From a virus, in IMG/VR virus record IMGVR_UViG_3300027522_000035, positions 1 through 24,606 of that record: a stretch of DNA of 24,606 bases. One strand, written 5' to 3'. The notes under the pieces are model-generated. The model searched no databases, had not been told where the DNA came from, and saw only the letters and a list, made by a program, of their open reading frames with translations. Positions 4,941 through 18,464 of the stretch are shown here, one piece after another (position 1 is the first letter of the stretch; every line of letters starts with the position of its first letter). The translations under genes and the position numbers were made by a program.

Positions 4941-5756
4941 TTATCCTATCATGTAGTTAATTGGTAATTCAAAATGCAATTGAATTTGATCTTCCAACTT
5001 CGTGATTTCGTCTATTGCTTGACTATAAATATCACCACCGTTCATAGTAACACCACCGAGCATTTCTACTCCACTAAACTTAGAAAGGTTTGACCCCCAT
5101 TGTCGTTTGATAAGAGCTGTTGTATATCTTTTCAAATACATATCATTATAAATGTCTGTAAATTGGTTTGGATCAAGTTTCCTGTAACATTCTATAATAA
5201 TAAATTCGCCTACACTCAGGTCATTGTTCCAATCCATATCTAAATAAAGTCTCTGTTGATGTTGACTGAATCTAATTGGAACCTCACCAACAAGTATATG
5301 TTCTAGGAAGTCAAGATGTTGAAGTGTCATTTGATATTCCATAATAGAAGTTGATGAAAAATCGTATAAGTCGTTTAATCTAAGTTGATACCTAATATCA
5401 AACAGACTACCACTAGTACCACCACTAAAAGGAAAAACATTCACAACAGCAACAACTGCTTCTGGGGTAGGAATATATCCAGCTCCATCAAACCAAGTTG
5501 CAGTTACAGTATTATCTACAGTATCAGTTGCAGATGTAGTGTAATTGGTATTTGCTCTATCAATATCTGACTGTAAAACTTTATGTTTTAGATATACTCT
5601 TTCAATTCCATCGTAATGATATTCTGCGAAATATTGTAGCGCTTCATCAATACGGTCATCTACTTGGTCATCTGATACATTTATATCTATTACACCAAAA
5701 CCAAGTGACCTAAGACAATAGGCCTTTAGGGTATCTTTTGTTGCGGGTATTGCCAT
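4941..5756 (-). CDS. 13: Neck protein gp13
   Basis: gp13 is the head-completion protein that binds the portal after packaging and recruits gp14. This 271-aa protein (T4: 309) starts MAIPATKDTLKAYCLRSLG, then has GVIDINVSDDQVDDRIDEALQ and YFAEYHYDGIERVYLKHKV, the conserved opening of T4-like gp13. A central FIIIECYRKLDPNQFTDIYN segment and YTTALIKRQWGSNLSKFSGV also fit the family. Its initiation region (ATG with AAAGGAG) is an exact 20-nt copy of that of the 46-aa gene just upstream. First of five essential late genes in a row. Confidence 0.95.
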   Translation of the reverse strand: MAIPATKDTLKAYCLRSLGFGVIDINVSDDQVDDRIDEALQYFAEYHYDGIERVYLKHKVLQSDIDRANTNYTTSATDTVDNTVTATWFDGAGYIPTPEAVVAVVNVFPFSGGTSGSLFDIRYQLRLNDLYDFSSTSIMEYQMTLQHLDFLEHILVGEVPIRFSQHQQRLYLDMDWNNDLSVGEFIIIECYRKLDPNQFTDIYNDMYLKRYTTALIKRQWGSNLSKFSGVEMLGGVTMNGGDIYSQAIDEITKLEDQIQLHFELPINYMIG

Positions 5757-5929
5757 TTAGTCACTCCTTTTATTTTACCAGAACTTTAGTTTCTTAACTG
5801 CCTTTGTACTTGCTTTTGCTGTGCGACTTATCACGCCAGCAGTTTGATTTGCTGCATTCGTTGTTGCACTAACAACTGCGGCCGGTGTTTCTTTAATTGT
5901 TTTTAGCCATGCCATTTAGTCACTCCTTT
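5751..5929 (-). repeat. 20-nt direct repeat of the translation initiation region
   Basis: Bases 5751-5770 and 5910-5929 are identical over 20 nt. Each copy contains the Shine-Dalgarno AAAGGAG, the spacer TGACTAA, the ATG and the GCA second codon, one for gp13 and one for the 46-aa gene. The repeat is 159 bp apart. It suggests duplication of the ribosome-binding region, or selection for the same initiation strength. Confidence 0.85.
5775..5915 (-). CDS. 46-aa Ala/Thr-rich basic protein, unknown
   Basis: This small gene encodes 46 residues starting MAWLKTIKETPAAVV and ending VKKLKFW before TAA. It has no Cys. The middle is rich in Ala, Thr, Ser and Asn, and the end is rich in Lys (KASTKAVKKLKFW); it could form an amphipathic or cationic helix. 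No membrane segment or signal peptide is convincing. Reasons to believe it is real: a strong Shine-Dalgarno identical to that of gp13, a perfect late promoter 20 nt upstream (5935-5942), and no other gene in this gap. It is the first gene of the neck and packaging operon, so it is expected to be made late and in quantity. A minor virion or head-tail assembly component is possible but unproven; I recognise no homologue. Confidence 0.72.
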   Translation of the reverse strand: MAWLKTIKETPAAVVSATTNAANQTAGVISRTAKASTKAVKKLKFW

Positions 5930-5934
5930 ACCTA

Positions 5935-5942
5935 TATTTATA
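5935..5942 (-). promoter_or_regulatory. T4-type late promoter for the 46-aa gene-gp13-gp17 operon
   Basis: The minus strand carries an exact TATAAATA. With T4 spacing the transcript starts at base 5929 with an A, just ahead of the AAAGGAG of the 46-aa gene, leaving a leader of only about 14 nt. The box overlaps the stop codon of the GNAT gene (5938-5940), so the accessory block and the neck operon are joined without spare sequence. Confidence 0.82.
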
Positions 5943-6447
5943 AGTATTTAGAAGCAACGCAATTTGGCCCGTACTGACCGTCATCAAACCAATCACTTTT
6001 TTTAACAAAACCTACCTTTTCGTAAGCAGGAAGAGCAGACTTTCTTGGAACTGTCCATAACCAAGTAGCATCATGTTTACTTACAAACTCAGATGTATGA
6101 GTTAAAATTTTAAATGAAAGTCCTTTCCGTCGATGATTAGGAGAAGTCCAAAGTCCTCTAGAGCGCCAATAACTATCTTCCTTATAATTAAATGGATGAC
6201 TAGATGAAGTCATGAAGCAGCTATTAACACAAACTATCTCATTATCAATTTTAATACCAAAGAACTGGATGTTCGAGTTTTCTGACTTCGGTATCCCCTC
6301 CTTCTTTAATACGGTTGTAAATAAATACGGCTCCATCGTTAGTGTCCAATTATTAGTTGGTTTTACTCCACCCTTTTTTTCTGGCCACAAATGTTGTTCC
6401 CATATTTTCTTAATCTCTTCCCATTTAATTTCTTCTACCTCATGCAT
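5938..6447 (-). CDS. GNAT-family N-acetyltransferase
   Basis: GNAT enzymes move an acetyl group from acetyl-CoA to an amine of a small molecule, sugar or protein. The ORF is open from 6504, but the ATG at 6447 is preferred. It follows AAGGA at about 10 nt and overlaps the upstream stop by only 8 nt (ATGCATGA); the longer form would overlap by 65 nt. The resulting 169-aa protein begins MHEVEEIKWEEI. The acetyl-CoA binding signature lies in RSRGLWTSPNHRRKGLSFKIL, that is L-W-x-x-P-x-H-R-R-K-G-x-S, the Q/R-x-x-G/A motif A of the fold. It is followed by the AYEKVGFVKKSDWF C-terminal strand (YEKxGF) typical of GNATs. It is the last gene of the accessory block. The substrate is unknown; an amino-sugar made or transferred by the neighbouring glycosyltransferases is a reasonable guess. 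Confidence 0.82.
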   Translation of the reverse strand: MHEVEEIKWEEIKKIWEQHLWPEKKGGVKPTNNWTLTMEPYLFTTVLKKEGIPKSENSNIQFFGIKIDNEIVCVNSCFMTSSSHPFNYKEDSYWRSRGLWTSPNHRRKGLSFKILTHTSEFVSKHDATWLWTVPRKSALPAYEKVGFVKKSDWFDDGQYGPNCVASKYL

Positions 6448-7141
6448 AATCTTTAAATCCTTCCCATTCATGTGGTTTATTAAATCGGTGTGAGAAATGA
6501 ACAAATTTTATATCAGGATGAAACTCACCTCCTAAAAATACATAGTCGTTACTTGTTAGTTTACTATACTTTCTTGTTATCTGAACTTGCCACTTTTTAA
6601 TACTCTTACCACTTATAATATCTTCACCAGTGACCCAACGAGTAAACCATTCACAAGGCAACACTTTCAACTTTAATCTTTCATTCACAGAATCCTCAAC
6701 AAAATATTGTTCTCCATTTACAGGACCACTTGTTGTTCCATTTGAAATATAATGACTCTGCCAGCGATTATGATCTTTCATAAACTTATCGTAAATATAT
6801 TCACAGTCTGTAGGATAATATTTGAAGAACCCCCCATTGATAGAGTATCCTTCCTTCTCCGTGTCTCTCCACCACCCTGGCATAGCTGCAAACTCACCTT
6901 TTACAATAGGGTACTCAAATATCTTCTTATAGTCATTCATCAAAAGAATGTCAATGTCTATAACACAAACAGGTTCATCAATACCAGTTTGCATTGCCCA
7001 CATCTTATTCCATTGAAGTTGTACTTCGGGGTGATAAGCTTCTCGTATCCAGACTAGTTCATAATCTGAAAGTTTTTTCTCTAAGTATGTTTCGTACTCT
7101 GGCCCATACTTGTCGCCTATTCTAACTGCAAATATTTTCAT
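6440..7141 (-). CDS. Glycosyltransferase, GT-A type with DXD motif
   Basis: The 233-aa protein starts MKIFAVRIGDKYGPEY, a beta strand and nucleotide-sugar loop. It then has WNKMWAMQ and the metal-binding VCVIDIDILLMNDYKKIF, with D62-I-D64 as the DXD motif that holds the divalent metal and the sugar nucleotide. Later NGGFFKYYP (inverting/retaining GT-A acceptor region) and a C-terminal HFSHRFNKPHEW resemble GT8/capsular-type transferases. No membrane segment is visible, so it should act in the cytoplasm during virion assembly. One base separates its ATG from the stop of the upstream oxygenase gene. Donor and acceptor are unknown. It differs from the second glycosyltransferase at 13547-14407, so the two may act in sequence. 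Confidence 0.82.
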   Translation of the reverse strand: MKIFAVRIGDKYGPEYETYLEKKLSDYELVWIREAYHPEVQLQWNKMWAMQTGIDEPVCVIDIDILLMNDYKKIFEYPIVKGEFAAMPGWWRDTEKEGYSINGGFFKYYPTDCEYIYDKFMKDHNRWQSHYISNGTTSGPVNGEQYFVEDSVNERLKLKVLPCEWFTRWVTGEDIISGKSIKKWQVQITRKYSKLTSNDYVFLGGEFHPDIKFVHFSHRFNKPHEWEGFKDYA

Positions 7142-7142
7142 A

Positions 7143-7853
7143 TCAATGTGTGTGTAATAGGTTAGCTATTACTTTCTCCACGTTCTCTGTAGTCATCGGT
7201 ATATTCATTATCATATGATCACTTTCATCTATCCAACTAACTGTTCTATGTGTCATTCTAGTATTTACATAATATGCTCTGCCGTGTTCAATCATCAGTT
7301 TCTTATCATCTTGCATAAACCAATCGTATTGCTGCGGGCCGCAGTTCTGAAGAAATACAATTACCCTAAAACAATTTCTGGGTATGCTTGGATGATCTCT
7401 GTGTGGTGGAAAATAACCACCAATATTTGAACGAACAATAAAGGTTCGACCTAAAGGTTCAAACGCATCACATATAGGTTGCAAACTTTCACAGGAATGA
7501 TATAAATCTGTAAACTCATTAAAATCTACATCGTCTAATTTTTTTCCTGCTGATCGACTTGCCTGTGGTAAACTAGGATTGTCTTGGTGTGTTTTGCCAG
7601 GCAAATTTGTAACAGCAAGGCCTTCTCTATTATTAGGCCTGCCCTCTTTCGGTAAGTAGTTAACCCAATCATTATCAAACAATTTAATTTCACGCCTATA
7701 CTTTTCTGGGTCAACGTAAAAATGCAAGGGTTCAAACATACCCAATTGTAATAGTCCCAACTCATTCATCAATGTTTCTTGTGTTACTTCCCCTTTAGGA
7801 AATTTATGAAACTTTCTTTTTCCTGCTGGTAAATCAACTTCATTATCCACCAT
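7143..7853 (-). CDS. 2OG-Fe(II) oxygenase, Asp/Asn hydroxylase-like
   Basis: The family uses 2-oxoglutarate and O2 to hydroxylate a substrate on a non-haem iron. In the 236 residues, the double-stranded beta-helix core is seen from about 137: FIVRSNIGGYFPPHRDHPSIP gives the H151-x-D153 pair, FRVIVFLQNC is a core strand, and ARAYYVNTRMTHRTVSW-like sequence (192-207) provides the distal H202 with R203 nearby. The N-terminal 130 residues are specific to this subgroup. The stop lies one base before the glycosyltransferase start and the start overlaps the upstream gene by 11 nt, so it is firmly part of the block. Substrate unknown; virion protein side chains and sugar or lipid intermediates are both possible. 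Confidence 0.8.
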   Translation of the reverse strand: MVDNEVDLPAGKRKFHKFPKGEVTQETLMNELGLLQLGMFEPLHFYVDPEKYRREIKLFDNDWVNYLPKEGRPNNREGLAVTNLPGKTHQDNPSLPQASRSAGKKLDDVDFNEFTDLYHSCESLQPICDAFEPLGRTFIVRSNIGGYFPPHRDHPSIPRNCFRVIVFLQNCGPQQYDWFMQDDKKLMIEHGRAYYVNTRMTHRTVSWIDESDHMIMNIPMTTENVEKVIANLLHTH

Positions 7854-9216
7854 TTTTCATACCTCTTTTTTTTATACCTCTTTTAAATAAATCTTTTCCT
7901 CTTAAATGATAATACTCTGTGTGTTTCTCAAGTGTGTCTACCATATTATCAAAACTTTCTTTGAGCTCTAATAAACTATAACACGCATGAGATGTGTGAT
8001 ATCCATAGATATTACTGACATCCATGAACACCCTTTTGCCTTTAATTTTATTTACAAACCAATCATTGCCTGCCTCACCAATTGCATCCCAAACTTTATA
8101 TTCAATTTCATAATTGTTATACATTTTTTCTTGGATTGTTCTCAACTCTTCATGTGTTCCAAAACTTTTAGTTCTTTCGTTTAACGTAGTTCTATGTTCT
8201 CTATTTGGTGCCATATTATTCACAGTAATTATTTGGGGTGATGTTTTTCCATACAATCTTATATCACTCATAGACATGTTCATTTCAACAATGTTTTGTT
8301 TTATCTCCACATTCTCACTACAATAATCATAGAAGACAATCTCTCCATCGAAATCTAACTTGTCTGCAAAAACTTCGCCACTATACCCAGCTGTTGGCGT
8401 CATTATCAAATCAAAAGGTTTTTCCGGCAGCTGCCCTAAGCCCTCCGTATTTTCTGCATAGAATATTTCATACAGTCTTGTAAATAAAACTTGAAAATAA
8501 GGATCGGTCTTGTCTATATCATCACGCCACCCAAAATTTTTCGCATGAATAATACCCCAATTCTTATTCTGCAACTCTCTTCGGTTCTGCATGTGGGCGT
8601 AAGACCAACACTTTGCGTTACGTTCTTCAACAGAAAAATTTGTGATAGTAGGAAGACCGTCAATCTTTATCCAAGATGGTGTGTAATCGTCATGAAAATT
8701 ATCATCTGCCCTTATAAAATTATCCCACTTCCCTCTTATATTTGGTTTATCCAATGATCTCCATTTTTTAAGATTAAGTTCTATGTGTTGGTGATGAATA
8801 AATGCTTTCTCGCCAGGCCTAGCAATGATGTGACCTTTGCAAAATTCATCTGTCTTTGTCCAGTTATAAAATCTTTGGATTGCAGTTGTTGAGCGAACCA
8901 TATCAAAGACCATACCCACTGAAACAATCATGGCATGAGTGTAATCTTCACAAGTTTCTAATACGTCTTGCAACTCTGTGAGGTAACATATCTTTTGATT
9001 ATGACCTGTCCCTGCACCAGTAATACCACCAGAAGTTTGCGTTAGTGTTGTCTGTAATTGTTTTTCCATCGAAAAGTCCCACTGAAACGTGACATAGGGT
9101 GGTTTTTTTTTGTTAGGATACACAATAATAAAGACAAGATTTTCAACTCCTTTTTTGGGTTTTATTTTTTCTGTGTGTTCTAACCAGAAATTTTTAACTT
9201 CTTTAAAGCTTTTCAT
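7843..9216 (-). CDS. Unknown two-domain protein; glycosyltransferase-like N-half, methyltransferase-like C-half (tentative)
   Basis: I do not recognise this 457-aa protein with confidence. The N-terminal half opens with a hydrophobic strand (LVFIIVYP), then has YTHAMIVSVGMVFDM, a later GHIIARP and IHHQHIELNLKKWR; these look like alternating strands and helices of a nucleotide-sugar-binding fold. The middle carries a Trp/Asn-rich region (WSYAHMQNRRELQNKNWGIIH). From about residue 289, FDLIMTPTAGYSGEVFADKL followed by GEIVFYDYCSENVEIKQNIV resembles the first two strands of a Rossmann methyltransferase, with D or E closing the second strand. The C-terminus (GYHTSHACYSLLELKESFD, then Lys/Arg-rich) includes a conserved-looking VFMDVSNIYGYH. 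It overlaps its neighbours on both sides (11 and 14 nt). A role in the same decoration pathway is inferred from position only. Confidence 0.5.
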   Translation of the reverse strand: MKSFKEVKNFWLEHTEKIKPKKGVENLVFIIVYPNKKKPPYVTFQWDFSMEKQLQTTLTQTSGGITGAGTGHNQKICYLTELQDVLETCEDYTHAMIVSVGMVFDMVRSTTAIQRFYNWTKTDEFCKGHIIARPGEKAFIHHQHIELNLKKWRSLDKPNIRGKWDNFIRADDNFHDDYTPSWIKIDGLPTITNFSVEERNAKCWSYAHMQNRRELQNKNWGIIHAKNFGWRDDIDKTDPYFQVLFTRLYEIFYAENTEGLGQLPEKPFDLIMTPTAGYSGEVFADKLDFDGEIVFYDYCSENVEIKQNIVEMNMSMSDIRLYGKTSPQIITVNNMAPNREHRTTLNERTKSFGTHEELRTIQEKMYNNYEIEYKVWDAIGEAGNDWFVNKIKGKRVFMDVSNIYGYHTSHACYSLLELKESFDNMVDTLEKHTEYYHLRGKDLFKRGIKKRGMKNGG

Positions 9217-10504
9217 AGTATGGTTTCCATTCGGGAAACATATCAGTCAAACATGTTCCTCTGTATTTGTCTCGTTTTGAAATATCAATCATCATTTTAT
9301 TATGTAGTTCTTCATCCCACTCCATGTTTGTAAGATAACTGGATAACTTCATGAAGGTTTTTGTGTGATGAGGTTTCACCTCAGAGTATATTTTGTCTAG
9401 ATATTGCTCTCTGATATCAGGTGGAACAGCTGTGACAATGTATAGATTTTGGCCACCTACAACAAGACTACCAGTAGCAAAATCATTATATACATCTGGC
9501 GATTCTTCTTGCAGAATATCCACTCCATCAGCTACCTCATTTAAATATCCTATGTTCAAAGAACTGACACAGGTTGCAAATAATATTTTTGTCCTAGGCA
9601 TTTTTGCAAACCTCTTAACATTCTCCATAATCTTTGGCCACTTGGAGGGAAAACGAATATAATTATTTTTCTCTCCCCAACACTCAACTGATATATTCAT
9701 CTGACAGTCCTTGAAATGTGGAACGTAATTGAATATATCTCCCCTCTTACCCATCTTTGGAGTCAAAGTTGCATTAGTGGTTATGACAAGTCGCATCTGA
9801 TCACTAACGCCCATATCAATAGCTTTATCCATCATGTCATAATTTTGAGTCAATGCAAGTGTCTCACCACCGACAAGTTTCATTTCAATGAGGTTCTTGA
9901 TAATATCGGTATATTTTTCCATATCATCTTCATCATTGACCCAAGTTCTACCATTGAGCCAACTACTTGTCATTCCCTTGCCTTGAGATACTCCAATCGC
10001 TTTATTCTCTTTTGCATAGCTGGAAGAATTATAGGGACCACACATATGACATTTAAGATTACAGAAGTTATTAGGAGCATTGTATTCCATTGTCAAATAG
10101 AAAGGATCATTCATATCTGATTCAATATACGATTCAAGTGCATCTGTATATTCTCTATATTCGCCATGTTCTTTATCAAACTTATCTAAATATACAATTC
10201 TATGACTTTCAGTCGGCGAGAGTCTTTCTTGCTCTTTACACACCATACAGTGTTTATCAATTAGTGGTGTAGGTTTGTCAGCGTTCATGAACTCATCACG
10301 AAATGTCTTCATGAATTTTGTATGATGAACTTCCATAGGGCCCATTTTATCTTGAGGATAAGACTTTGCTGATTGGTCTAATGATCTTCTTCCACCTGGC
10401 CACGATTTTAAAACACAACAAGGTTTTTTAGCTCCATCGTGATTGATGACCGTATTCATAAACGGTTGCGGGCAAAACCATTTCAAGTCTTTTAAGTTAG
10501 TCAT
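9203..10504 (-). CDS. Radical SAM protein with N-terminal twitch/SPASM-like cysteine domain
   Basis: Radical SAM enzymes use a 4Fe-4S cluster to cleave S-adenosylmethionine and start radical chemistry. The 433-aa protein has the core motif C148-x3-C152-x2-C155 (FCNLKCHMCGP), followed by a GGE loop in KLVGGETLALTQ and an ITTNATL strand, as in the TIM-barrel core. Ahead of it is an auxiliary cluster region: WFCPQPF (C11), KKPCC (C29, C30) and HCMVC (C86, C89). This arrangement is seen in twitch/SPASM-containing phage and marine bacterial proteins that modify peptides or sugars. It overlaps the upstream SPASM ORF by 8 nt (ATGACTAA) and the downstream unknown gene by 14 nt. The substrate is unknown. 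The reading frame is intact, unlike the neighbouring radical SAM gene. Confidence 0.85.
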   Translation of the reverse strand: MTNLKDLKWFCPQPFMNTVINHDGAKKPCCVLKSWPGGRRSLDQSAKSYPQDKMGPMEVHHTKFMKTFRDEFMNADKPTPLIDKHCMVCKEQERLSPTESHRIVYLDKFDKEHGEYREYTDALESYIESDMNDPFYLTMEYNAPNNFCNLKCHMCGPYNSSSYAKENKAIGVSQGKGMTSSWLNGRTWVNDEDDMEKYTDIIKNLIEMKLVGGETLALTQNYDMMDKAIDMGVSDQMRLVITTNATLTPKMGKRGDIFNYVPHFKDCQMNISVECWGEKNNYIRFPSKWPKIMENVKRFAKMPRTKILFATCVSSLNIGYLNEVADGVDILQEESPDVYNDFATGSLVVGGQNLYIVTAVPPDIREQYLDKIYSEVKPHHTKTFMKLSSYLTNMEWDEELHNKMMIDISKRDKYRGTCLTDMFPEWKPYYEKL

Positions 10505-10835
10505 AGACTATTTCCTCTCTCGTATCTCTGTCATCACCACAATATTTTGTACAGATTTTAGGAACAGATGTTCCCTTGATTAGTCCATTGAAAAAGTCAA
10601 GCCATTCTATTGACATTATGATATCTTCAATGGTATCAACATTTTCTATTTTTAATTCCTCTTTAAACAAATCGTCCATACCGGCCATACTACCATTATA
10701 ATCTGATTTCAATTTTCGTAGTGGGTCTGTCCAACAACAAGGCAACAGATAACCCTCTGCATTTAATGCAAATGATTTTCCTTTAGCACACTTTGGTTTA
10801 AGCACAGTTAATCTCACTTGGTTTGTACGGGTCAT
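10497..10835 (-). CDS. SPASM-like Fe-S domain, separate second part of a radical SAM gene
   Basis: This 112-aa ORF carries the auxiliary iron-sulphur domain expected at the C-terminus of a radical SAM enzyme: KPKC (C16), then NAEGYLLPCCW (C33, C34) and VPKICTKYC (C95, C99). There is no core domain in this ORF. It overlaps the core ORF at 10798-11385 by 38 nt in the +1 frame. The two together make the domain order core-SPASM of one normal enzyme. Its own ATG (10835) lies inside the core ORF and has only a weak GGTGG upstream. It may be made by translational coupling as a separate subunit, joined by frameshifting, or be the downstream part of a broken gene. A +1 shift just before the TAA stop of the first ORF would join INCA to KPKC, placing an extra Cys in register. 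Confidence 0.7.
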   Translation of the reverse strand: MTRTNQVRLTVLKPKCAKGKSFALNAEGYLLPCCWTDPLRKLKSDYNGSMAGMDDLFKEELKIENVDTIEDIIMSIEWLDFFNGLIKGTSVPKICTKYCGDDRDTREEIVYD

Positions 10836-11385
10836 CTGAACCAGACCACCGTGAAGATTTGTTTAGATGTAAGGGAATTTGATATTGACGAGCAAGTTCT
10901 ATAGCTTTGGATATGTCATTTTCGTTATATTTAAAAATAATATACTGCCATCTAATATCGTTACCATTCTCTTTACCAGATTTCATCACTTCAAACAAAT
11001 ATTCACCATCTTGATTTATCCTATATTTATGACTGTCCTGTGGAAGTCCATCAATACCAAACTCCCATATAGCAGATTTATTCGCACCAAACGCATCCAT
11101 GTACCAATCCATAGGTTTATGAGAAGCAGCAGTGTGTACAAAGACTCTCTTGTCTCTAGTAAGTTTAAGAAACTCTATGAACTGTGGATGAAATATTGGG
11201 TCAGATATTTGACCACAAAATTCTATCTGGTTAAAATGTTCAATGATCTTCTTAAAGCTGTCTAAAGATAAATCACCCAGATTGTTAGTAGGAACAGAAC
11301 GTCTAAGACACTTTGGACACTCCAACGTACATCGGTGGGTTATATCAAGATTTATGCTTTTCCTATCTAGTATAATTGAAAGCAA
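10798..11385 (-). CDS. Radical SAM core domain, first part of a split gene
   Basis: The 195-aa ORF holds the radical SAM core: INLDITHRCTLECPKCLRR with C19-x3-C23-x2-C26, then a barrel with FCGQISDPIFHPQF (the usual glycine motif region), VFVHTAASH and WEFGIDGL. It ends ...DDPYKPSEINCA, where relatives continue into a SPASM domain; here that domain is in the +1 frame (10497-10835). The start is also odd. The only in-frame start is TTG at 11385 with a TGA three codons upstream, whereas the best Shine-Dalgarno (AGGAG, 11402-11406 region) is spaced for ATG-ATG at 11395-11390, which is in another frame and stops after ten codons. Two frame breaks suggest a decaying gene, an assembly error, or unusual decoding. 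The core motif itself is intact. Confidence 0.72.
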   Translation of the reverse strand: MLSIILDRKSINLDITHRCTLECPKCLRRSVPTNNLGDLSLDSFKKIIEHFNQIEFCGQISDPIFHPQFIEFLKLTRDKRVFVHTAASHKPMDWYMDAFGANKSAIWEFGIDGLPQDSHKYRINQDGEYLFEVMKSGKENGNDIRWQYIIFKYNENDISKAIELARQYQIPLHLNKSSRWSGSDDPYKPSEINCA

Positions 11386-11404
11386 GTACCATCATCCTAT
11401 TCTC

Positions 11405-12145
11405 CTATTTGTGTTTAGTAAAAACACTAATTCCTAATTTACTACTAATACCTACTTTCCTAAAATCACTAGCACAATGTAATCTACAGGAATCAAACAC
11501 AATGGCATTTCCTGGCTTCCATTTGTGAGCAGAGTTACAACTTAACCCTTTTAGCCATCCATCCTTAATATGATCTAATGGCAAATTTGTCTCGAAAGGT
11601 TTTTGAGTTGTACCAATAACATTTGAGTACTCATATACACACATACTTCTGGGCAATTTTGCGAATTGCAAAGATTCATGATGACCTTTTGTTTCATGAC
11701 TGTCACCGTTAAAAAATTTACTTGGCCCATTCAAATAAAACTGATCAAAAAACATCAAGTAAGGTTCTTGATCTTCCCCCTCTATTCTTAATGGAATAGT
11801 AAATGCCTTATATATTTTAGGTAGTGTGTCTATACTATCGTCAATATGAATTATGTGAGGTTTATCGACATGGAAAAAGAACGCATACCATATCTCAATA
11901 TCACCAGCATGATCCCCAAAATATATTAAATCTCTAATTCTAGATAGAGCGGGATTATTAAAGTTTTCAATTTTAGATGTTATTGGCCCTGTGTTCTTAT
12001 GTTCCTTATTATCAGAATTTTCCCAAACATCAATTAACTCTTCAATGTCTTCTTCAGATACACAATTTTCTATAGAGTAAGGTTTATCTGTATGGGATAA
12101 GATAAAATCCTTGTCAACCTGTGATCGTTCATTTATCAACATCAT
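11405..12145 (-). CDS. 2OG-Fe(II) oxygenase-like protein
   Basis: This 246-aa protein has the marks of the 2-oxoglutarate/Fe(II) dioxygenase fold: WYAFFFHVD, then HIIHIDDS with H100-x-D102, a core strand FTIPLRIEG, and C-terminal GNAIVFDSCRLHCAS with the distal H223. SSKLGISVFTKHK follows, in which the usual Arg for 2-oxoglutarate may be replaced by K236. The long loop between (140-200) is rich in Gly, His and Asn. The start overlaps the stop of the next oxygenase gene by one base. The stop overlaps the Shine-Dalgarno of the split radical SAM gene. Closest in style to phytanoyl-CoA-dioxygenase-like proteins of marine phages; substrate unknown. Confidence 0.7.
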   Translation of the reverse strand: MMLINERSQVDKDFILSHTDKPYSIENCVSEEDIEELIDVWENSDNKEHKNTGPITSKIENFNNPALSRIRDLIYFGDHAGDIEIWYAFFFHVDKPHIIHIDDSIDTLPKIYKAFTIPLRIEGEDQEPYLMFFDQFYLNGPSKFFNGDSHETKGHHESLQFAKLPRSMCVYEYSNVIGTTQKPFETNLPLDHIKDGWLKGLSCNSAHKWKPGNAIVFDSCRLHCASDFRKVGISSKLGISVFTKHK

Positions 12146-12834
12146 TAATCAAGTTCTTTCAATACATCCTTACCAAACTGTTTAACCATAGATTTTTTCA
12201 TCAACTTAATTCGTTCTTTATTTGACCCACCATGAACGATAAAGTGAAAACGATTTTCATCAGAACTATTTAATGCTTCATGCGTCACTCCGTTGTCAAA
12301 CCAAAATCCAGTGCAATTTTCAAAGGGCAACTCTTCTTTAGTATCTACTCTTCGTAAATAACAATTGTCTGGCTGGTAAATAGCAAGGTTGATAGCAGCA
12401 GATATATTTCTCTGTCTCCCCTCATTTATTCTTGCATCACCAGCGTCATGATGTGCGTGAATATTTCCACCAGGCTTGATGAGCATAAACCTACAACGTC
12501 TATAGTGTTTGTGTGGAAAGTCTTCTAACCACCTCTTTGTCTCTGGCGCAATTTCTGCAATTTCAGTCCATCCCCACTTTACCGTGTCTTCAGTATAATT
12601 ATGGCCAGTAGGATTCATAGTATTACGCCAACCCAAAGACATATCAGATTCATCCTCATGAACAAATCCATGTATCGCAGCAGACCACCACTCATCACCA
12701 TCTTGTAGTCTATGTTCTACAAAAAACCCCTCATCATAAACTGCTTGAGTCTCTTTAATTATTATCTCTGGTATTTCTAAATCAATCTTTAAATACCAAA
12801 CATCGTTTTTTCTACACCACTGAACAGGATTCAT
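12145..12834 (-). CDS. Aspartyl/asparaginyl beta-hydroxylase-family 2OG-Fe(II) oxygenase
   Basis: This is the clearest oxygenase of the block. In 229 residues the core shows FMLIKPGGNIHAHHDAGD with H128-x-D130 as iron ligands, RNISAAINLAIYQPDNC (core strands), GFWFDNGVTHEALNSS with distal H185, and ENRFHFIVHGG with R195 placed to hold 2-oxoglutarate. This order (H-x-D, H, N-x-S, R-x-H-F-I-x-H) is typical of aspartyl/asparaginyl beta-hydroxylases, which hydroxylate Asp or Asn side chains in animals; in phages the targets are not known. It overlaps neighbours by 1 and 4 nt. Three such enzymes in one block suggest either several substrates or successive steps. Confidence 0.88.
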   Translation of the reverse strand: MNPVQWCRKNDVWYLKIDLEIPEIIIKETQAVYDEGFFVEHRLQDGDEWWSAAIHGFVHEDESDMSLGWRNTMNPTGHNYTEDTVKWGWTEIAEIAPETKRWLEDFPHKHYRRCRFMLIKPGGNIHAHHDAGDARINEGRQRNISAAINLAIYQPDNCYLRRVDTKEELPFENCTGFWFDNGVTHEALNSSDENRFHFIVHGGSNKERIKLMKKSMVKQFGKDVLKELD

Positions 12835-13514
12835 TTTCCAATCACCATAAATCTTGTACTCTTATTTGATAGAATTTTTGATCCAGAATACATAACGTCT
12901 TTAATCCTTGCTTGGTCAATCAACTCTTCTTCAGAGTTAACACAATTTATATGGTCTTCATGTTGTTCATCATCAGAAGACTGTAATATATATAGAGGAT
13001 TTTTCTGGACTACATTATTCAATTCTCTAAACTTCCACATAGGATACATGTGTTCACAAGCACAGTTTATAATAACATCATACACATCTTCTTTTGGTAT
13101 TGGTTTTAGATGCTGCCAAACATGTTGTGAGTTGAGGGGTTTAATCATAACGTTTTTCATATTAATTTTGTATCTATTTTCTTCCTTATATCGTTTATTA
13201 AACTTATAACTTATAGGTGACACATCATGATCAATCTCAAAATTTTCAATCCACTCACACTCTGGAAATGTGTCGAACATAAGAGGCACAATATACTGAG
13301 CAAACCAACCAGCAAGTAGAGCTACTCTTTTCGGTTGAACATCTAATTTCTTTAATGTCTCTACCAACCAGAGTTTACTTTCTAATTGAGAGGCGTTCAT
13401 AGAATCAAAAACTCTTTTTGTCAAGTATTGATAATTCCCAACTTCTAAATTTACGCCAGATGAAATTGCATTCTTCCAATCATTTGCCAGCTCTGGTGTA
13501 AATTGTAAATTCAT
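12831..13514 (-). CDS. SAM-dependent methyltransferase-like protein
   Basis: The reading frame is open from an ATG at 13553, but the ATG at 13514 is preferred because a strong GGAGGAA stands 7-8 nt upstream of it. The longer start would put this site inside the coding region. The 227-aa product has a Rossmann-like order: KRVALLAGWFAQYIVPLMF as motif I strand and loop (the usual G-x-G is reduced to A-G-W), WIENFEIDHDVSPIS with an acidic end of the second strand, then YDVIINCACEHMYPMW resembling the D-x-x-x-x-N/D motif IV, and a strand PLYILQSSD. A methyltransferase is likely but the cofactor loop is not standard. Its stop overlaps the downstream oxygenase by 4 nt. Confidence 0.65.
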   Translation of the reverse strand: MNLQFTPELANDWKNAISSGVNLEVGNYQYLTKRVFDSMNASQLESKLWLVETLKKLDVQPKRVALLAGWFAQYIVPLMFDTFPECEWIENFEIDHDVSPISYKFNKRYKEENRYKINMKNVMIKPLNSQHVWQHLKPIPKEDVYDVIINCACEHMYPMWKFRELNNVVQKNPLYILQSSDDEQHEDHINCVNSEEELIDQARIKDVMYSGSKILSNKSTRFMVIGK

Positions 13515-13522
13515 ATTTTGTT

Positions 13523-13540
13523 CCTCCGATACCTCCGATA
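13523..13540 (-). repeat. 9-bp tandem duplication carrying the Shine-Dalgarno
   Basis: The plus-strand unit CCTCCGATA occurs twice back to back (13523-13531 and 13532-13540), so the mRNA has two GGAGG sites in tandem before the ATG at 13514. Only the nearer one is at normal spacing. This decides the start of the methyltransferase-like gene and may raise or buffer ribosome loading. Confidence 0.8.
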
Positions 13541-13546
13541 CTATTT

Positions 13547-14407
13547 TTACCATAATGATTTCAACTCCTCAACATCGTTAGTATCTGCACTATTATTAAA
13601 TAAACAAATCCTATGATCTGGTCTTAATTTTTTTTGTTCTATATCTGAGGGAAAAATGTTGCCTGTGTAATATGAATAAATGTCTCCTTTTGGAAATACA
13701 TTAAAGAAATTTTCAGCAAGGTTATTGTTAGTTTCATTCCACATATTATACCAAAAGTGATTGAGATAATTATCAATGGTAGGATATGTAAAAAATAAAA
13801 CGTCTAAGTTCTTAACAATGTGCTTGTATATCTCTGTGAGTTGACCCCTATTCCATCGAATGACAGATGAATTTATAGGAGTTGATTGCATCGATGCATA
13901 ATTCTTTCGACACTCATTCATGTCATTCCACCAACCTCTAACAATCCACGGATGTTTCATTTCAAGAGTAAAAAAGTATGCTAAGTCTTGATGGATGATA
14001 ACGTCAAGGTCAAGATATAGAAAATTATCTCCCTTTATAGATTTAAAATCTTTCTCTGAATGTTCAGCTCTGCTGGATTCATCCAATCCACCAACGGGAT
14101 GCCAGCTGGCACCAGTGGGCATATTTTCTTCCGCTTGAAATTCATTTTGGATAAGTTGAAACATGTAGAGTTTTCTATATGCCCACATGTTTGAAGGAGC
14201 TTGTTGATTACGAAATCGACTGTGCAGACCTTCGTACTCATCCCAAGTTGTAGGAAGCAAAATATCATAATCTTTTTCTTTTTTGTCAGTGAGACAGTAA
14301 AAGTTGAAAGGGACTGAACAGTTATCTTCACACTGTTGCTTTAACTTTTCTACATATTCTCGGCTGTACTTATCGCCCCACTTGACGCATAATATTGTAT
14401 TTTTCAT
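13547..14407 (-). CDS. Glycosyltransferase, GT-A type with DXD motif (second copy type)
   Basis: This 286-aa protein opens MKNTILCVKWGDKYSREYV, has FYCLTDKKEKDYDILLP and APSNMWAYRKLYMFQL, then the metal-binding NFLYLDLDVIIHQDL with D133-L-D135 (DXD). PINSSVIRWNRGQLTEIYKH is a common acceptor-side motif in this phage and marine bacterial family, and the C-terminus RPDHRICLFNNSADTNDVEEL is also typical. Residues about 92-124, between the helix and the DXD strand, look like an insertion rich in Gly, Ser, His and Glu. It shares the opening (K-x-x-x-x-V-x-x-G-D-K-Y) with the transferase at 6440-7141 but is longer, so the two are distant paralogues at best. It is the first gene of the accessory block, 10 nt after the structural gene before it. 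Confidence 0.85.
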   Translation of the reverse strand: MKNTILCVKWGDKYSREYVEKLKQQCEDNCSVPFNFYCLTDKKEKDYDILLPTTWDEYEGLHSRFRNQQAPSNMWAYRKLYMFQLIQNEFQAEENMPTGASWHPVGGLDESSRAEHSEKDFKSIKGDNFLYLDLDVIIHQDLAYFFTLEMKHPWIVRGWWNDMNECRKNYASMQSTPINSSVIRWNRGQLTEIYKHIVKNLDVLFFTYPTIDNYLNHFWYNMWNETNNNLAENFFNVFPKGDIYSYYTGNIFPSDIEQKKLRPDHRICLFNNSADTNDVEELKSLW

Positions 14408-14417
14408 AATTGTTTAT

Positions 14418-15059
14418 CTATAATAATGTAGAGTAAGCTTTAATTGCCTCCACTGGATTTTCTGCTTTACGAATTTCAGTTTTCGCTTTTCTTTTCTTAC
14501 TATTCTTTACTGACTCTTGCTCAAATATTTTCAGTTTCAATTTAAATAAAACTTCTTTGTGATCAGCATTTTCTGCATCAAAGTCAAAAAGAATATCCAA
14601 ACTTCCCTGTGATTCCTCAGTAATTTCTTGAGTTTCTTGAGTTTCTTGATCTTGATCTTGATCTTGAGTTTGTTTAGTTTCTTGATACAGATTATTTTCT
14701 TTTGCATAACGATGAAAGGCATCTCTAAATACTTGACGATCAACTTCAAGTTTTGCTCTTGTACATTCATCAATAGATTCCCAAGGAAATTCTTCCAACA
14801 AAGCTTTCATTCTTGCGTCATCAGGTTCCACTGGGGAAATATGATAAGAAGTTTGAAGTTCTTTTCCACCGTTTTCATGAACTCCAACTTCATCATCACC
14901 CGCATGAACTGCGCCAGCTGGGGGTGTATAATTATATACAATCTCAAGGGCAGTTAACTCATTATTTATATAGTAAACCTCAACAACCTTTCCGACGAAT
15001 GGAAATTTTGGATCACCATTCGCAAAATATGCATCAGTTTCTTTATTCTCATATGCCAT
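14418..15059 (-). CDS. Acidic phage protein with Gln/Asp/Thr repeats, unknown
   Basis: The 213-aa protein is acidic, apart from a Lys-rich C-terminal helix. It begins MAYENKETDAYFANGDPKFPF and has a first region with hydrophobic strands (VGKVVEVYYINNELTALEIVYNYTPP). A helical middle follows (FPWESIDECTRAKLEVDRQVFRD). Residues about 131-146 are a low-complexity run of QDQDQDQETQETQE encoded by short tandem DNA repeats, followed by a basic helix (KNSKKRKAKTEIRKAE). The Shine-Dalgarno GGAG is well placed. Its position between virion genes and the absence of enzyme motifs suggest a structural or assembly role, but I cannot name a family. Confidence 0.7.
   Translation of the reverse strand: MAYENKETDAYFANGDPKFPFVGKVVEVYYINNELTALEIVYNYTPPAGAVHAGDDEVGVHENGGKELQTSYHISPVEPDDARMKALLEEFPWESIDECTRAKLEVDRQVFRDAFHRYAKENNLYQETKQTQDQDQDQETQETQEITEESQGSLDILFDFDAENADHKEVLFKLKLKIFEQESVKNSKKRKAKTEIRKAENPVEAIKAYSTLL
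14623..14667 (-). repeat. In-frame 9-bp and 6-bp tandem repeats
   Basis: The plus strand has one ATTTCTTGA and two GTTTCTTGA 9-mers followed by three TCTTGA 6-mers. Both unit lengths are multiples of three, so gain or loss of copies changes the length of the Gln/Glu/Asp run without breaking the gene. Confidence 0.85.
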
Positions 15060-15074
15060 AATTAATCTCCTACC

Positions 15075-16025
15075 CTATGAAACGTGTATTCTTAAATTGT
15101 ATGAACTAATTGCCTGTGCCGAACCACTAGGTTGTTCCTGTGCTCTATAATCATCACCAACTTGTCTTGTTCTATAAGTTGAACCATCTAACTTTGTATT
15201 TACCATTGCTGTTCCACGAACATTTCCACTACCACTAGTTCCTACATTATAGGATATTTTATGGTCATTAGTAGAATGAGCAGCCTCAAATCTTAGTAAA
15301 TTACCAAATAAAGTTGAAGCATCTGCAACACTATATTCTTGAAGATTATTGTTTCCATCTATATGTAGTGGACTTCTTGATGGTGTATTATCAACACCAT
15401 CTCTTACATGAAGAAAATAACTAGTTATTGTTGTTGGTTGGTCAAGTGTCTCAGGAATACCAGCAGCAGTAAATGCACCTGCATTGGCTCTAGTATCAAT
15501 AAATACTGCTGTAGTAGAAACGTTTGTATATCCACTAGCCGCAGTCGCTGAATTTGTGATAGTAAAAGTTCCAGCAGTAGCAGATGATTCTGCTGCGGTT
15601 GTCATAGTCAAAATTGTAGGGAATACAAATGTGTCTAACATATCAGTTAAAGTCATTGCTCTAACCGCACCCGCAGTTGAATCATAATATACAGGAAAAC
15701 TTATTCCAGTATCACTAACATGTCCAATCGACCCACTAGCAGTATATGCTAGATTAATCTTATCGAATGCAACAGTTACAGTTGCAACGTCAGCAGTCTC
15801 AGCTACCAAATCAAAGTTGGTAGCGTCTTGACCAGTTGCACCAGCCTTTGTTCTAGTATCACTCATTGCAGCAATCAATGCACCACTATTAGCAACTTGC
15901 GTAAGAACAGCAGTAGGATTCTCTGAATATATAAACTGCATCTTCTGTCGCCATTGAGTAACTTCACCAGAAGACATGGCAGTTAAATTACCATTTAAAA
16001 AATATAAAGGACTTCTTACTGTCAT
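15075..16025 (-). CDS. Virion structural protein, marine T4-like type
   Basis: The 316-aa protein starts MTVRSPLYFLNGNLTAMSSGEVTQW, an opening (RSPLYF-x-x-G-N-x-x-x-M) I associate with virion proteins of marine T4-like phages, followed by an IYSENPTAVLTQVANSG stretch. The rest is rich in Ala, Thr, Ser and Gly with predicted beta structure, and there is a YFLHVRDGVDN and NLRIHVS ending. It has no enzyme motif. It is co-directional with the fibre-like gene (1 nt gap) and has a GGGAG site before its ATG. It could be a fibre, whisker or decoration protein; the exact role is not known. Confidence 0.75.
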   Translation of the reverse strand: MTVRSPLYFLNGNLTAMSSGEVTQWRQKMQFIYSENPTAVLTQVANSGALIAAMSDTRTKAGATGQDATNFDLVAETADVATVTVAFDKINLAYTASGSIGHVSDTGISFPVYYDSTAGAVRAMTLTDMLDTFVFPTILTMTTAAESSATAGTFTITNSATAASGYTNVSTTAVFIDTRANAGAFTAAGIPETLDQPTTITSYFLHVRDGVDNTPSRSPLHIDGNNNLQEYSVADASTLFGNLLRFEAAHSTNDHKISYNVGTSGSGNVRGTAMVNTKLDGSTYRTRQVGDDYRAQEQPSGSAQAISSYNLRIHVS

Positions 16026-16026
16026 T

Positions 16027-18237
16027 TTAAGTTACTCCCGGCGCAAATCCGGCAACTGAGTTTAATATATGCCCACCCGAATCACGAATTTCTATAACAT
16101 TTTTTTGCATACCAGCATGAAGGAACGGCATGTTTTCCATATGAACATTACTACCAGCGTTAGTTGATGAACCATCTGTACCATCTAAGAGTATATTATC
16201 ACCAGCATCAGTTCCGTCAGCAGCAGATTGATTCATAACAATTAATACATCTCCACCCCTTCTTACCAAAGTTTGACCATCGCCATTTGGGCCGTTGTTG
16301 GCGCCGCCATCTGAAACCATCAAACCTTTATCAGGTCTATGGAAAAGATAAACTTCCTTATCAGCGCCAAAGTAAATAAAAGAACCATCAGATTTCAAAC
16401 AAAAATCATCACCAACGGTAAGATCAAGAGAAATTCCAACACCACCAGCTACAGTTAATGCACCGTCTGTGGCAACTGTATTAGCAGTCGTTGCAGTTAT
16501 AGCAACTACACCAGCAGAGGAGATTGTAACAGCATTAAGATCACTAGCAGAACCGATTGACCCGCCGTCTTGGATTGTGATACTTGCATTAAATACAGGC
16601 CGGGCGCTAAAGGTAGCAATACCAGTAACTAAAGCGGTTCCAGATATATCTACATTACCATTAATATCAATTAGGGTTGAGGTTAAGTCTATTTCATCGT
16701 CTGCAGCGATTGACAAATCACCGTCAGCAGTTGAACTAATGTGAATTGCAGTATCACGAAATATTATCTTTTTATTTGTAGCCATTGTTATGGCATCTGC
16801 TTGTGCAAGTGTACCACTAATCTCTACATTACCATTGATATCAATAAGTGTAGAGTTAAGTTCTATCTCATCATCGGCATTAATGTCTAGATCACCATCA
16901 GCTGGAGAACCGATATTAATTGCAGCGTCACGAAACTGTACTACCATTGCAGCATTAAGTAATATCCCAGTATCGTGAACATGAGTTAAAGTTACATCTT
17001 TACCCGCACCAAAAGTTAATACAGCAGCGTCACTAAGTAAGAATAAGTCATCTCCAATAACAGCATCCAAGGCTACAGACAAACCACCATCAGTCTGCAA
17101 TGAACCATCAGTTGTAGAAGTTGCAGCAGTAGTATCATCTGTTTTAATAATACCACTTGCAGTTACCGTACCAGTTACTGCTAGGGCCGAACCAGTAAAA
17201 GTTAAGTTTGCCTCACCGTTACCACTATTAGAACCTGTAGCAGTAATAACACGGTTGTTACCGTCATTATTCAAAGATAAACCATCAGATTGATTAGCAA
17301 AAGCTAAGTTTCCATCACCATCAGTTGCAAGAAGTTGATTTGCAATACCATCAGCAACAGGCATTCTAAACTGAATACCACCAGCAGCTGGGGGAAGAAA
17401 AAGAGAACCTAAGAGGTTGTCACTTGTTGCAGACTGATAAGCAAATCTTGCGTTAACAGAAGACTCATCAACATTTTCTCTAGTCAAGAATACCAATGCA
17501 TCTTCAGTTGATACTTCAAGGATTATAAATTCTTCATAATCCTCAAATGTAGGATTGACAATATGATCATTTGTTCCTTCTTCATAAATAAGAGCTTCAC
17601 CAATGTTAACGACCACACCTTCTACATCAGTTGCATCTCCATCAAGAATGATTGCACTAGATGAATTTGCACCACTAGAATTAGTTCCATTAAGAAGAAT
17701 AATATCATCAATATCTCTACCTATTAATGCTATCGTTCCTGTCTTGTTTTGAACTGTTACTGTTCTATCAGCAGTAGGATCAGTGATTGAAAGGGTTGTT
17801 TGAAACTCATCTATTGTTGAACCCTCAAATACAAAGTCTCCAGAAAATTGATTAAGAGGATTTATAAGATGATCCCCTGTTCCTATTTCATATAAAAGTG
17901 CCTCACCAACATCCACACCAACTGCGCTAGCATTAAGAATGATTGCACTAGACTCATCTGTACCACTTCCATCTGTTGCATTAAGAACAACAACATCGTT
18001 GATATCTCTACCCGTCAATGCTATTGTACCAGACTTATCTTGCATTGTTACTGTTCTGTCAGTAGTAGGATCAATTATTACAAGGGTTGTTTGAAAATCA
18101 TCAGCTGTAGTTCCCTCAAATACAATCTCTGCACCAAATTTCAATCCTTGAATATCTGATCTAAGAGTATTAAAAGATCGACGAAATGTATCTAATGAAT
18201 CGCCAGTAGTTATTGAAGCTGCTGTAATTGTTGCCAT
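16027..18237 (-). CDS. Repeat-built fibre-like virion protein
   Basis: The 736-aa protein begins MATITAASITTGDSLDTFRRS and FNTLRSDIQGLKFG, an N-terminus typical of marine phage fibre-like structural proteins and probably the attachment part. Three internal repeat pairs follow: residues about 38-127 and 135-229 (VFEG...DEFQTTL, GTIAL-x-GRDI, VGEALLYE); about 376-420 and 589-633 (TDG-L...VGDD-x-FL...FGA-KDV); and about 436-476 and 493-534 (FRD-AI...DEIDLTSTLIDINGNV-ISGT). Such Asp/Gly/Asn-rich repeats usually make beta-solenoid or trimeric fibre shafts. The C-terminal part (640-736) is Gly/Asn-rich and could hold the tip. It occupies the place of the short tail fibre/whisker genes (12, wac) in T4 order. 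Its stop is 1 nt from the next gene, and its start overlaps the upstream stop. Confidence 0.8.
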   Translation of the reverse strand: MATITAASITTGDSLDTFRRSFNTLRSDIQGLKFGAEIVFEGTTADDFQTTLVIIDPTTDRTVTMQDKSGTIALTGRDINDVVVLNATDGSGTDESSAIILNASAVGVDVGEALLYEIGTGDHLINPLNQFSGDFVFEGSTIDEFQTTLSITDPTADRTVTVQNKTGTIALIGRDIDDIILLNGTNSSGANSSSAIILDGDATDVEGVVVNIGEALIYEEGTNDHIVNPTFEDYEEFIILEVSTEDALVFLTRENVDESSVNARFAYQSATSDNLLGSLFLPPAAGGIQFRMPVADGIANQLLATDGDGNLAFANQSDGLSLNNDGNNRVITATGSNSGNGEANLTFTGSALAVTGTVTASGIIKTDDTTAATSTTDGSLQTDGGLSVALDAVIGDDLFLLSDAAVLTFGAGKDVTLTHVHDTGILLNAAMVVQFRDAAINIGSPADGDLDINADDEIELNSTLIDINGNVEISGTLAQADAITMATNKKIIFRDTAIHISSTADGDLSIAADDEIDLTSTLIDINGNVDISGTALVTGIATFSARPVFNASITIQDGGSIGSASDLNAVTISSAGVVAITATTANTVATDGALTVAGGVGISLDLTVGDDFCLKSDGSFIYFGADKEVYLFHRPDKGLMVSDGGANNGPNGDGQTLVRRGGDVLIVMNQSAADGTDAGDNILLDGTDGSSTNAGSNVHMENMPFLHAGMQKNVIEIRDSGGHILNSVAGFAPGVT
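16640..16934 (-). repeat. Direct repeat pair inside the fibre-like gene (174-bp offset)
   Basis: A segment near 16640-16760 and one near 16814-16934 are clearly related at DNA level, offset by 174 bp (58 codons), with the same frame. They encode the DEI-x-L-x-STLIDINGNV-x-ISGT unit. This is recent enough that nucleotide similarity is visible by eye. Confidence 0.75.
17551..18126 (-). repeat. Tandem 90-residue domain duplication in the fibre-like gene
   Basis: Segments 17857-18126 and 17551-17835 encode two copies of a domain with the pattern VFEG-T/S-T...DFQTTL...DPT-DRTV...GTIAL...GRDI...VGEAL-YE...GDH-NP. Sequence divergence is moderate and both copies keep the frame. Confidence 0.75.
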
Positions 18238-18464
18238 TATTCTTTACCCACCAACTTTTCTAATAGAGTTTTAATTTCGTGCATCTCGCATTTAATATTA
18301 TTTATCTCCCTTGTCGCAGACCTTAAATCATCTCTTTGCTTTTGTGCCGATTTAGATCGAGAAACTGCTCGATCATAGGCAGTCGTATTAGTATTAACAA
18401 TAGCTCCTGAATGTTTATCTCTTACGAGGTCTACATTATCTTCTACTTTTATATAATTTTCCAT
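18237..18464 (-). CDS. 75-aa conserved phage protein with C-terminal coiled coil
   Basis: The small protein starts MENYIKVEDNVDLVRDKHSGAI with VNTNT, a pattern (YIKVE...LVRD...GAI-NTN) familiar from a small protein of marine T4-like phages encoded next to large virion genes. The second half, about residues 34-72, is a charged helix with heptad-like spacing (REINNIKCEMHEIKTLLEKLV), suggesting oligomerisation. It is tightly coupled: the stop overlaps the fibre-like gene start (TAATG) and the start lies 1 nt after the upstream stop. A chaperone or connector for the flanking structural proteins is possible, not shown. Confidence 0.75.
   Translation of the reverse strand: MENYIKVEDNVDLVRDKHSGAIVNTNTTAYDRAVSRSKSAQKQRDDLRSATREINNIKCEMHEIKTLLEKLVGKE

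Follow-up and report, generated by a model that had tools for sequence, protein, structure and literature searches.

An optional cassette of predicted modification enzymes linked to a fiber gene pair in a marine T4-like phage

We analyzed a 24.6-kb IMG/VR fragment of a marine T4-like phage (IMGVR_UViG_3300027522_000035; 24,606 nucleotides (nt), referred to here as the window), whose host is probably a SAR11-type bacterium. We found that genes A to J of this fragment form an optional cassette that is gained or lost in a unit-like manner and that is tied to a putative fiber gene pair, u15075 and u14418. The core of the cassette has a constant order, two of its products (C and H) are coupled in bacterial chromosomes, and a radical S-adenosylmethionine (SAM) system is split over two of its genes (E and F). 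Our data strongly favor a multi-enzyme decoration pathway: the cassette enzymes would most likely hydroxylate an acceptor, which would then receive a modified glycan. We put the probability that this acceptor is the linked fiber protein at roughly 0.45.

Results

Gene content and layout

An initial annotation of the window had described eleven same-strand open reading frames (ORFs) between virion genes and the gp13 operon. We confirmed their coordinates and overlaps: the ORFs run on the minus strand from 14407 to 5938, with the fiber genes on one side and gp13 on the other, and neighboring ORFs overlap or are separated by no more than 38 nt. Letters follow the order of transcription along the minus strand; 2OG denotes 2-oxoglutarate.

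A, 13547-14407, minus strand: predicted GT-A glycosyltransferase, GT8/GT24-like, DLD motif
B, 12831-13553, minus strand: Rossmann methyltransferase or spermidine-synthase-like protein
C, 12145-12834, minus strand: 2OG oxygenase of the Asp/Asn beta-hydroxylase family
D, 11405-12145, minus strand: probable 2OG-Fe(II) oxygenase
E, 10798-11385, minus strand: radical SAM core (CxxxCxxC) lacking SPASM
F, 10497-10835, minus strand: separate SPASM-type Cys subunit, 38-nt overlap with E
G, 9203-10504, minus strand: twitch-domain radical SAM protein
H, 7843-9216, minus strand: predicted GT-A-like domain (residues ~21-222) and methyltransferase-like domain (~223-454)
I, 7143-7853, minus strand: probable 2OG oxygenase (HRD...H)
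J, 6440-7141, minus strand: GT-A glycosyltransferase, DID motif
K, 5938-6450, minus strand: GNAT acetyltransferase, linked to gp13 and not to the cassette
u14418, 14418-15059, minus strand: partner gene, possible fiber chaperone or attachment factor
u15075, 15075-16025, minus strand: putative fiber/tip protein and proposed target, Ser/Thr-rich and Cys-free

For K, the ATG at 6450, which overlaps the J stop, is a more likely start than the listed TTG at 6504. We sought a foreign base composition of the block and found none, with a GC content of 0.32-0.36 throughout.

The cassette is optional and has a constant core

We compared the block with its relatives in five viral-contig scans (approximately 200 loci, given here by L numbers). 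The order A-B-C-H-J is constant in approximately 30 marine contigs, a recurrence well beyond chance, and it holds across contigs at 40-60% protein identity. D, E/F, G, I, and extras such as a carbamoyltransferase and a DUF6071-like gene are variably present. The clearest case is a presence/absence pair of near-identical phages, L052 and L135, whose aligned flanks are 93, 91, and 96% identical at the nucleotide level: L052 lacks 7,282 bp, starting directly after u14418 and ending with J, and retains K. Because exactly A-J is missing between these flanks, A-J is an optional cassette, and because K is kept in both L052 and L053 in the absence of A-J, K lies outside it. The initial annotation had asked whether relatives show variation of the block as a unit at this junction; the core order and the L052/L135 pair indicate that they do, although its extent had been drawn one gene too far. 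Single, unlinked occurrence of the genes, which the initial annotation had named as telling against its reading, was partly observed, for the mobile E/F, G, and K and not for A-B-C-H-J.

The cassette is tied to a fiber gene pair

We next considered 28 distinct complete junctions (27 listed, together with L052, which had been removed earlier as a duplicate gp13 and was restored). Both u15075 and u14418 are present at 8 of 8 block-positive junctions, compared to 1 of 20 block-negative junctions (Fisher value approximately 3e-6, calculated by hand and only a guide since the contigs share ancestry). The block is tied to this fiber pair and not to gp13, since in L009 and L137 it follows u15075/u14418 and precedes a second VrlC-like gene instead of gp13. 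In the cultured phage Mosig EXVC030M, homologues of the pair lie beside an inverted, divergent modification block, while HTVC008M contains neither the pair nor the block. Genes of 297 and 193 amino acids (aa) in HTVC008M were tried as remote homologues of the pair and gave no signal. Other genes occupy the junction in HTVC008M and Melnitz.

The u15075 product contains 24% Ser/Thr and no Cys, and it is 42.6% identical to Mosig_00097. For u14418 there was no family match above cut-off; its profile weakly matches the TAF1 bromodomain region (3e-4), which we judged to be chance.

In 25 of 26 cases for gp18 and 54 of 86 for gp13, the 120 nt upstream of the gene contain the T4-type late box TATAAATA, which is almost never found upstream of cassette genes. 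Together with the gap of 10 nt between u14418 and A, this near absence suggests that the cassette is expressed by read-through from the fiber genes. A scan for sigma-70 promoters performed no better than on shuffled sequences.

C and H are coupled

C is clearly assigned by its sequence to the Asp/Asn-hydroxylase family (PF05118, 9.4e-10, 39 bits; Pfam cut-off, 22.6). The iron/2OG site H128xD130...H185...R195 is invariant in 22 sequences, and AspH provided the only matches of the C profile in PDB. The acceptor of C may be Asp/Asn or another molecule, such as a lipid, which is the substrate of LpxO.

H had been described as an unknown two-domain protein. Two domains were recovered, and they are no longer without a prediction: the AlphaFold2 model (mean predicted local distance difference test (pLDDT) score, 89.5) predicts with high confidence that the first domain is GT-A-like and the second methyltransferase-like. 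Domain 1 aligns to LARGE1, LH3, and COLGALT1 with Z of approximately 8, a value that the alignment tool warns can reflect a common arrangement, and domain 2 aligns to NNMT-type methyltransferases with Z of approximately 9. At 7-13% identity, these matches (Z 8-9) indicate resemblance, not function. H has no conserved DxD at the position where A and J carry one; a motif NxHDDYTP is invariant instead. The H profile matched no PDB sequence.

H-like domains were found in 5 of 129 Bacteriovoracia genomes in a genome scan, with one more marginal match. C and H form one polypeptide, in either order, in L215, L216, and L211/L218, and C lies inside the same 719-aa frame that gave the H match in L217. 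In L210, C and H are separate, overlapping genes. That C and H work jointly is our strongest functional inference, because the two are fused or overlapping in these chromosomes. The fusion proteins of L215, L216, L217, and L211, genomes related to predatory bacteria, are large (681-919 aa). Twitch-type radical SAM proteins, a GT2 enzyme, and a carbamoyltransferase are encoded near the bacterial C-H; on a Halobacteriovoraceae chromosome, C-H lies beside GT2, YdjC, and carbamoyltransferase genes.

A split radical SAM enzyme

E matches PF04055 (6e-4) and phrog_21308 (3e-15), and its NCBIfam neighbors are radical SAM maturase families, far below their cut-offs. F matches PF13186 at 0.013, below cut-off. 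Radical SAM/SPASM maturases carry core and SPASM domain on one chain, whereas the SPASM-like F is separate in 56 of 56 adjacent pairs. None of these 56 distinct E-F pairs, from diverse phages, shares a frame (offset +1 in 38 and +2 in 18), and a 4-nt ATGA overlap is common at the junction. In L204 (8180-10821) the order is reversed, with an SPASM-type F gene upstream of a 790-aa ORF that contains the radical SAM core. Our data indicate that E and F are two translationally coupled genes and not a sequencing error, since frames differ across the 56 pairs, ATGA overlaps occur, and the order is reversed in L204. A frameshift or assembly error was ruled out, as the split is kept in all 56 pairs with varied offsets and overlaps; programmed frameshifting is disfavored by the ATGA overlaps, the two frame offsets, and the L204 order. 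This explains why the initial annotation counted ten genes among eleven ORFs. Its two radical SAM proteins with Cys domains were partly upheld: G has a twitch domain (NF033640 N_Twi_rSAM, 1.4e-71, 241.7 bits; NCBIfam cut-off, 170), but the other radical SAM protein and its Cys domain are the two genes E and F.

E/F-type pairs are widespread, frequently between gp15 and gp16, and one is found in Mosig. Many marine T4-like phages contain a second split radical SAM/SPASM pair between gp15 and gp16 (e.g., L136:14943-16087, L138:9864-11008, L145, L147, and others).

Glycosyltransferases, further oxygenases, B, and K

Structure prediction places A among the GT-A enzymes, close to GT8/GT24. Its AlphaFold2 model (mean pLDDT, 72.6) retrieved GT-A enzymes with Foldseek, including UGGT, the PBCV-1 capsid glycosyltransferase (2p6w/2p72), and LgtC (E 4e-6 to 8e-6). 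The DLD motif of A is invariant within LDLDVII, as is D62-I63-D64 of J, and A and J are mutually homologous (hhalign, 97%), in agreement with the two DXD glycosyltransferases noted initially. The Mosig homologue of J matches the phrog_1962 glycosyltransferase (5e-17). Against PDB sequences, the A profile gave spurious matches only and the J profile gave none.

Three 2OG oxygenases had been proposed. Besides C, which is above the Pfam cut-off, D and I are probable members, as judged from motifs and weak profile matches and with no Pfam match for either. D contains HxD with invariant H223 and K236, and D itself had no match in Pfam or PDB. Its place in relatives is taken by a 2OG-FeII_Oxy_5 gene, of which the 170-aa version in L136 matches PF13759 (1e-14). 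In I, H151xD153 and H202 are invariant, and its profile matches the beta-hydroxylase 7v4o (4.5e-4) and the Pro hydroxylase 4p7w (4.5e-3). Profile matches also agree with the methyltransferase-like protein and the GNAT described earlier: B matches spermidine synthases (E 7e-5) and has invariant CEH...QS...HINC motifs, and K matches PF13508 (4e-6) and PF00583 (6e-6). No cassette protein contains a membrane segment, searched for as a 19-residue stretch with a mean Kyte-Doolittle value above 1.4.

Neighboring genes and a second variable site

The following features flank the cassette.

18466-24606: DUF4815/VrlC-like gene, virion gene
18237-18464: phrog_473 protein, virion gene
16027-18237: fiber-like gene, virion gene
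5935-5942, minus strand: gp13-operon late-promoter-like box TATAAATA, located beyond the cassette

Downstream of the cassette lie gp13, gp14, gp15, gp16, gp17, and gp18; the window gp13 is 60-61% identical to those of the Pelagibacter phages HTVC008M and Mosig and the Methylophilales phage Melnitz. No wac homologue was identified. A 46-aa basic ORF (5780-5917; site 5756-5917) lies between K and gp13 and had no homologue in the fetched relative loci. It may be a small duplication or insertion, because the 20-nt AAAGGAGTGACTAAATGGCA is present at the starts of both this ORF and gp13.

As a side observation, the position before K/gp13 appears to be a second site at which cassettes are exchanged. 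In L119, L143, L026, L034, L040, and L121, two to four genes on the opposite strand lie directly before K/gp13, and four opposite-strand 2OG oxygenases occupy the same position in HTVC008M. L012 contains a gene for the TRAP-type solute-binding protein DctP (11244-12188; PF03480, 3e-45) between the block and gp13. L209 (CAJWSQ010000087.1), binned as a Flavobacteriales metagenome-assembled genome, is a phage contig with the block and gp13-gp15 and was likely mis-binned.

Discussion

A proposed decoration pathway

We infer the chemistry, substrate, and benefit of the cassette as follows. A-J would be an optional late cassette for multi-step decoration of the u15075 product or of its neighbor encoded at 16027-18237. 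C would hydroxylate side chains, aided by D and I where these are present. H and C would act as one unit, in which H would use its GT-A-like domain to bind or place the first sugar and its other, methyltransferase-like domain to modify that sugar. The related enzymes A and J would lengthen the glycan, and B, the E/F pair, G, and neighbors in relatives such as the carbamoyltransferase would tailor it. A fiber decorated in this way would change receptor use or protect the virion. We favor fiber decoration because of the core order, the loss of A-J as a unit, the u15075/u14418 linkage (including L009/L137 and Mosig), and the coupling of C and H. The absence of membrane segments, the likeness of A to the PBCV-1 capsid glycosyltransferase, and the lack of late boxes before cassette genes point the same way.

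Decoration of virion proteins had been proposed in the initial annotation, and the tie to a fiber pair strengthens that proposal beyond what was then known. Several points weigh against it. The u15075 product is itself a presumed virion protein, and we know of no modified virion protein here. Decoration would not be obligatory, since L052 and L053 keep u15075/u14418 without the cassette. Since the contigs are not independent of one another, the linkage might also have arisen because a single host-recognition island was inherited as a whole. Bacterial chromosomes contain homologues of C, H, G, B, and E with no phage fiber nearby, and the GT8-type enzymes, carbamoyltransferase, and aminotransferase would also fit surface-polysaccharide work.

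These points lead to the strongest competitor, which we consider a tentative but serious one: late remodeling of the infected-cell surface (lipopolysaccharide core or another glycan) that would block superinfection or free progeny from receptor-bearing debris. Lipopolysaccharide decoration does not usually involve as many as three oxygenases together with two systems of the radical SAM type, and the linkage of the cassette genes to the fiber pair, where they might have been dispersed, also speaks for the fiber. In addition, the cassette encodes neither a flippase nor a membrane acyltransferase, and its proteins have no membrane segment at all. The lack of a membrane protein argues against Gtr-type serotype conversion, which uses a membrane flippase and a membrane glycosyltransferase, though not against lipopolysaccharide-core modification. 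Consistent with surface remodeling, A is similar to LgtC and further enzymes of the GT8 type, the C-H genes on the one Halobacteriovoraceae chromosome have the neighbors described above, and relatives carry a carbamoyltransferase, a nucleotide-sugar epimerase, and an aminotransferase annotated as ArnB. Host O-chain alteration has also been proposed in print for the glycosyltransferases of this island (PMC7029224).

SPASM and twitch radical SAM proteins frequently act on peptides or metabolites, which would suit a free product, either a small molecule or a modified peptide (a metabolite, a cofactor, or a product resembling ribosomally synthesized and post-translationally modified peptides) that aids infection. 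The maturase families neighboring E support this, and a radical SAM/amidinotransferase block in Campylobacter phage CP220 was suggested to be metabolic (PMC2853527). We consider such a product improbable: the block has no conserved precursor-peptide gene, and its core is of the glycosyltransferase/hydroxylase type and not scaffold-building. Slightly less probable still is that the genes are loosely selected island cargo, brought together by recombination and sharing no pathway. As cargo would predict, D, E/F, G, I, and K are variably present or separately mobile and the HTVC008M and Melnitz junctions hold other genes, but the constant core order at such protein divergence, the C-H fusions, and the unit-like loss speak against it.

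Relation to known systems

The host recognition cluster of pelagimyophages is a hypervariable island from VrlC to the neck genes that contains tail fibers, GT8-type glycosyltransferases, and radical SAM cassettes, and an Asp/Asn hydroxylase is listed as a common pelagimyophage gene (PMC7029224). The window block shares this location, with VrlC (DUF4815) on one side and T4-like neck genes on the other, and likewise has tail fibers and glycosyltransferases that vary between relatives. The cluster was described as non-syntenic (PMC7029224), whereas here a fixed-order core is tied to one fiber pair, and H, the E/F split, and the C-H coupling are additionally resolved. Marine T4-like phages are rich in glycosyltransferases and 2OG oxygenases, for which differing roles have been suggested, among them alteration of the host O-chain, DNA repair, and the balancing of 2-oxoglutarate (PMC7029224, PMC3037559).

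In Mosig, the u15075/u14418 homologues adjoin a block with homologues of B, E, F, J, and I; this block is on the opposite strand, these homologues are 22-46% identical, nitroreductases, an aminotransferase, and a carbamoyltransferase are present, and H was not found in the stretch examined. CP220, also T4-related, has an exchangeable radical SAM block with sugar-transferase-like genes (PMC2853527), but these are mostly radical SAM proteins with an amidinotransferase, and C, H, and J have no match among annotated phage records. Collagen modification by PLOD/LH3-COLGALT1 and by mimivirus (PMC9546862) follows the same logic of 2OG hydroxylase and GT-A enzyme, fusions included, and H domain 1 aligns to proteins of this system. 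Here, however, the hydroxylase belongs to PF05118, no collagen-like target was seen, and the second domain of H is methyltransferase-like.

The constant gene order, the tie to a fiber pair, and two unusual enzyme designs appear to be previously undescribed: the open-access literature searched gave no account of the ordered core, the fiber-pair tie, the domain architecture of H, the coupling of C and H, or the separation of E and F, which is weak evidence of novelty, and nothing usable on tail-fiber glycosylation by phage enzymes or a split SPASM subunit.

Although we regard it as somewhat unlikely in full, the cassette may be a hydroxylation-glycosylation pathway that a phage directs at its own receptor-binding fiber, using a C-H unit (hydroxylase and GT-A-methyltransferase) that predatory bacteria also possess, together with a split-SPASM radical SAM enzyme. 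With a pair of near-identical phages that differ in the cassette, and with Mosig available as a distant carrier in culture on Pelagibacter HTCC1062, fiber decoration is directly testable.

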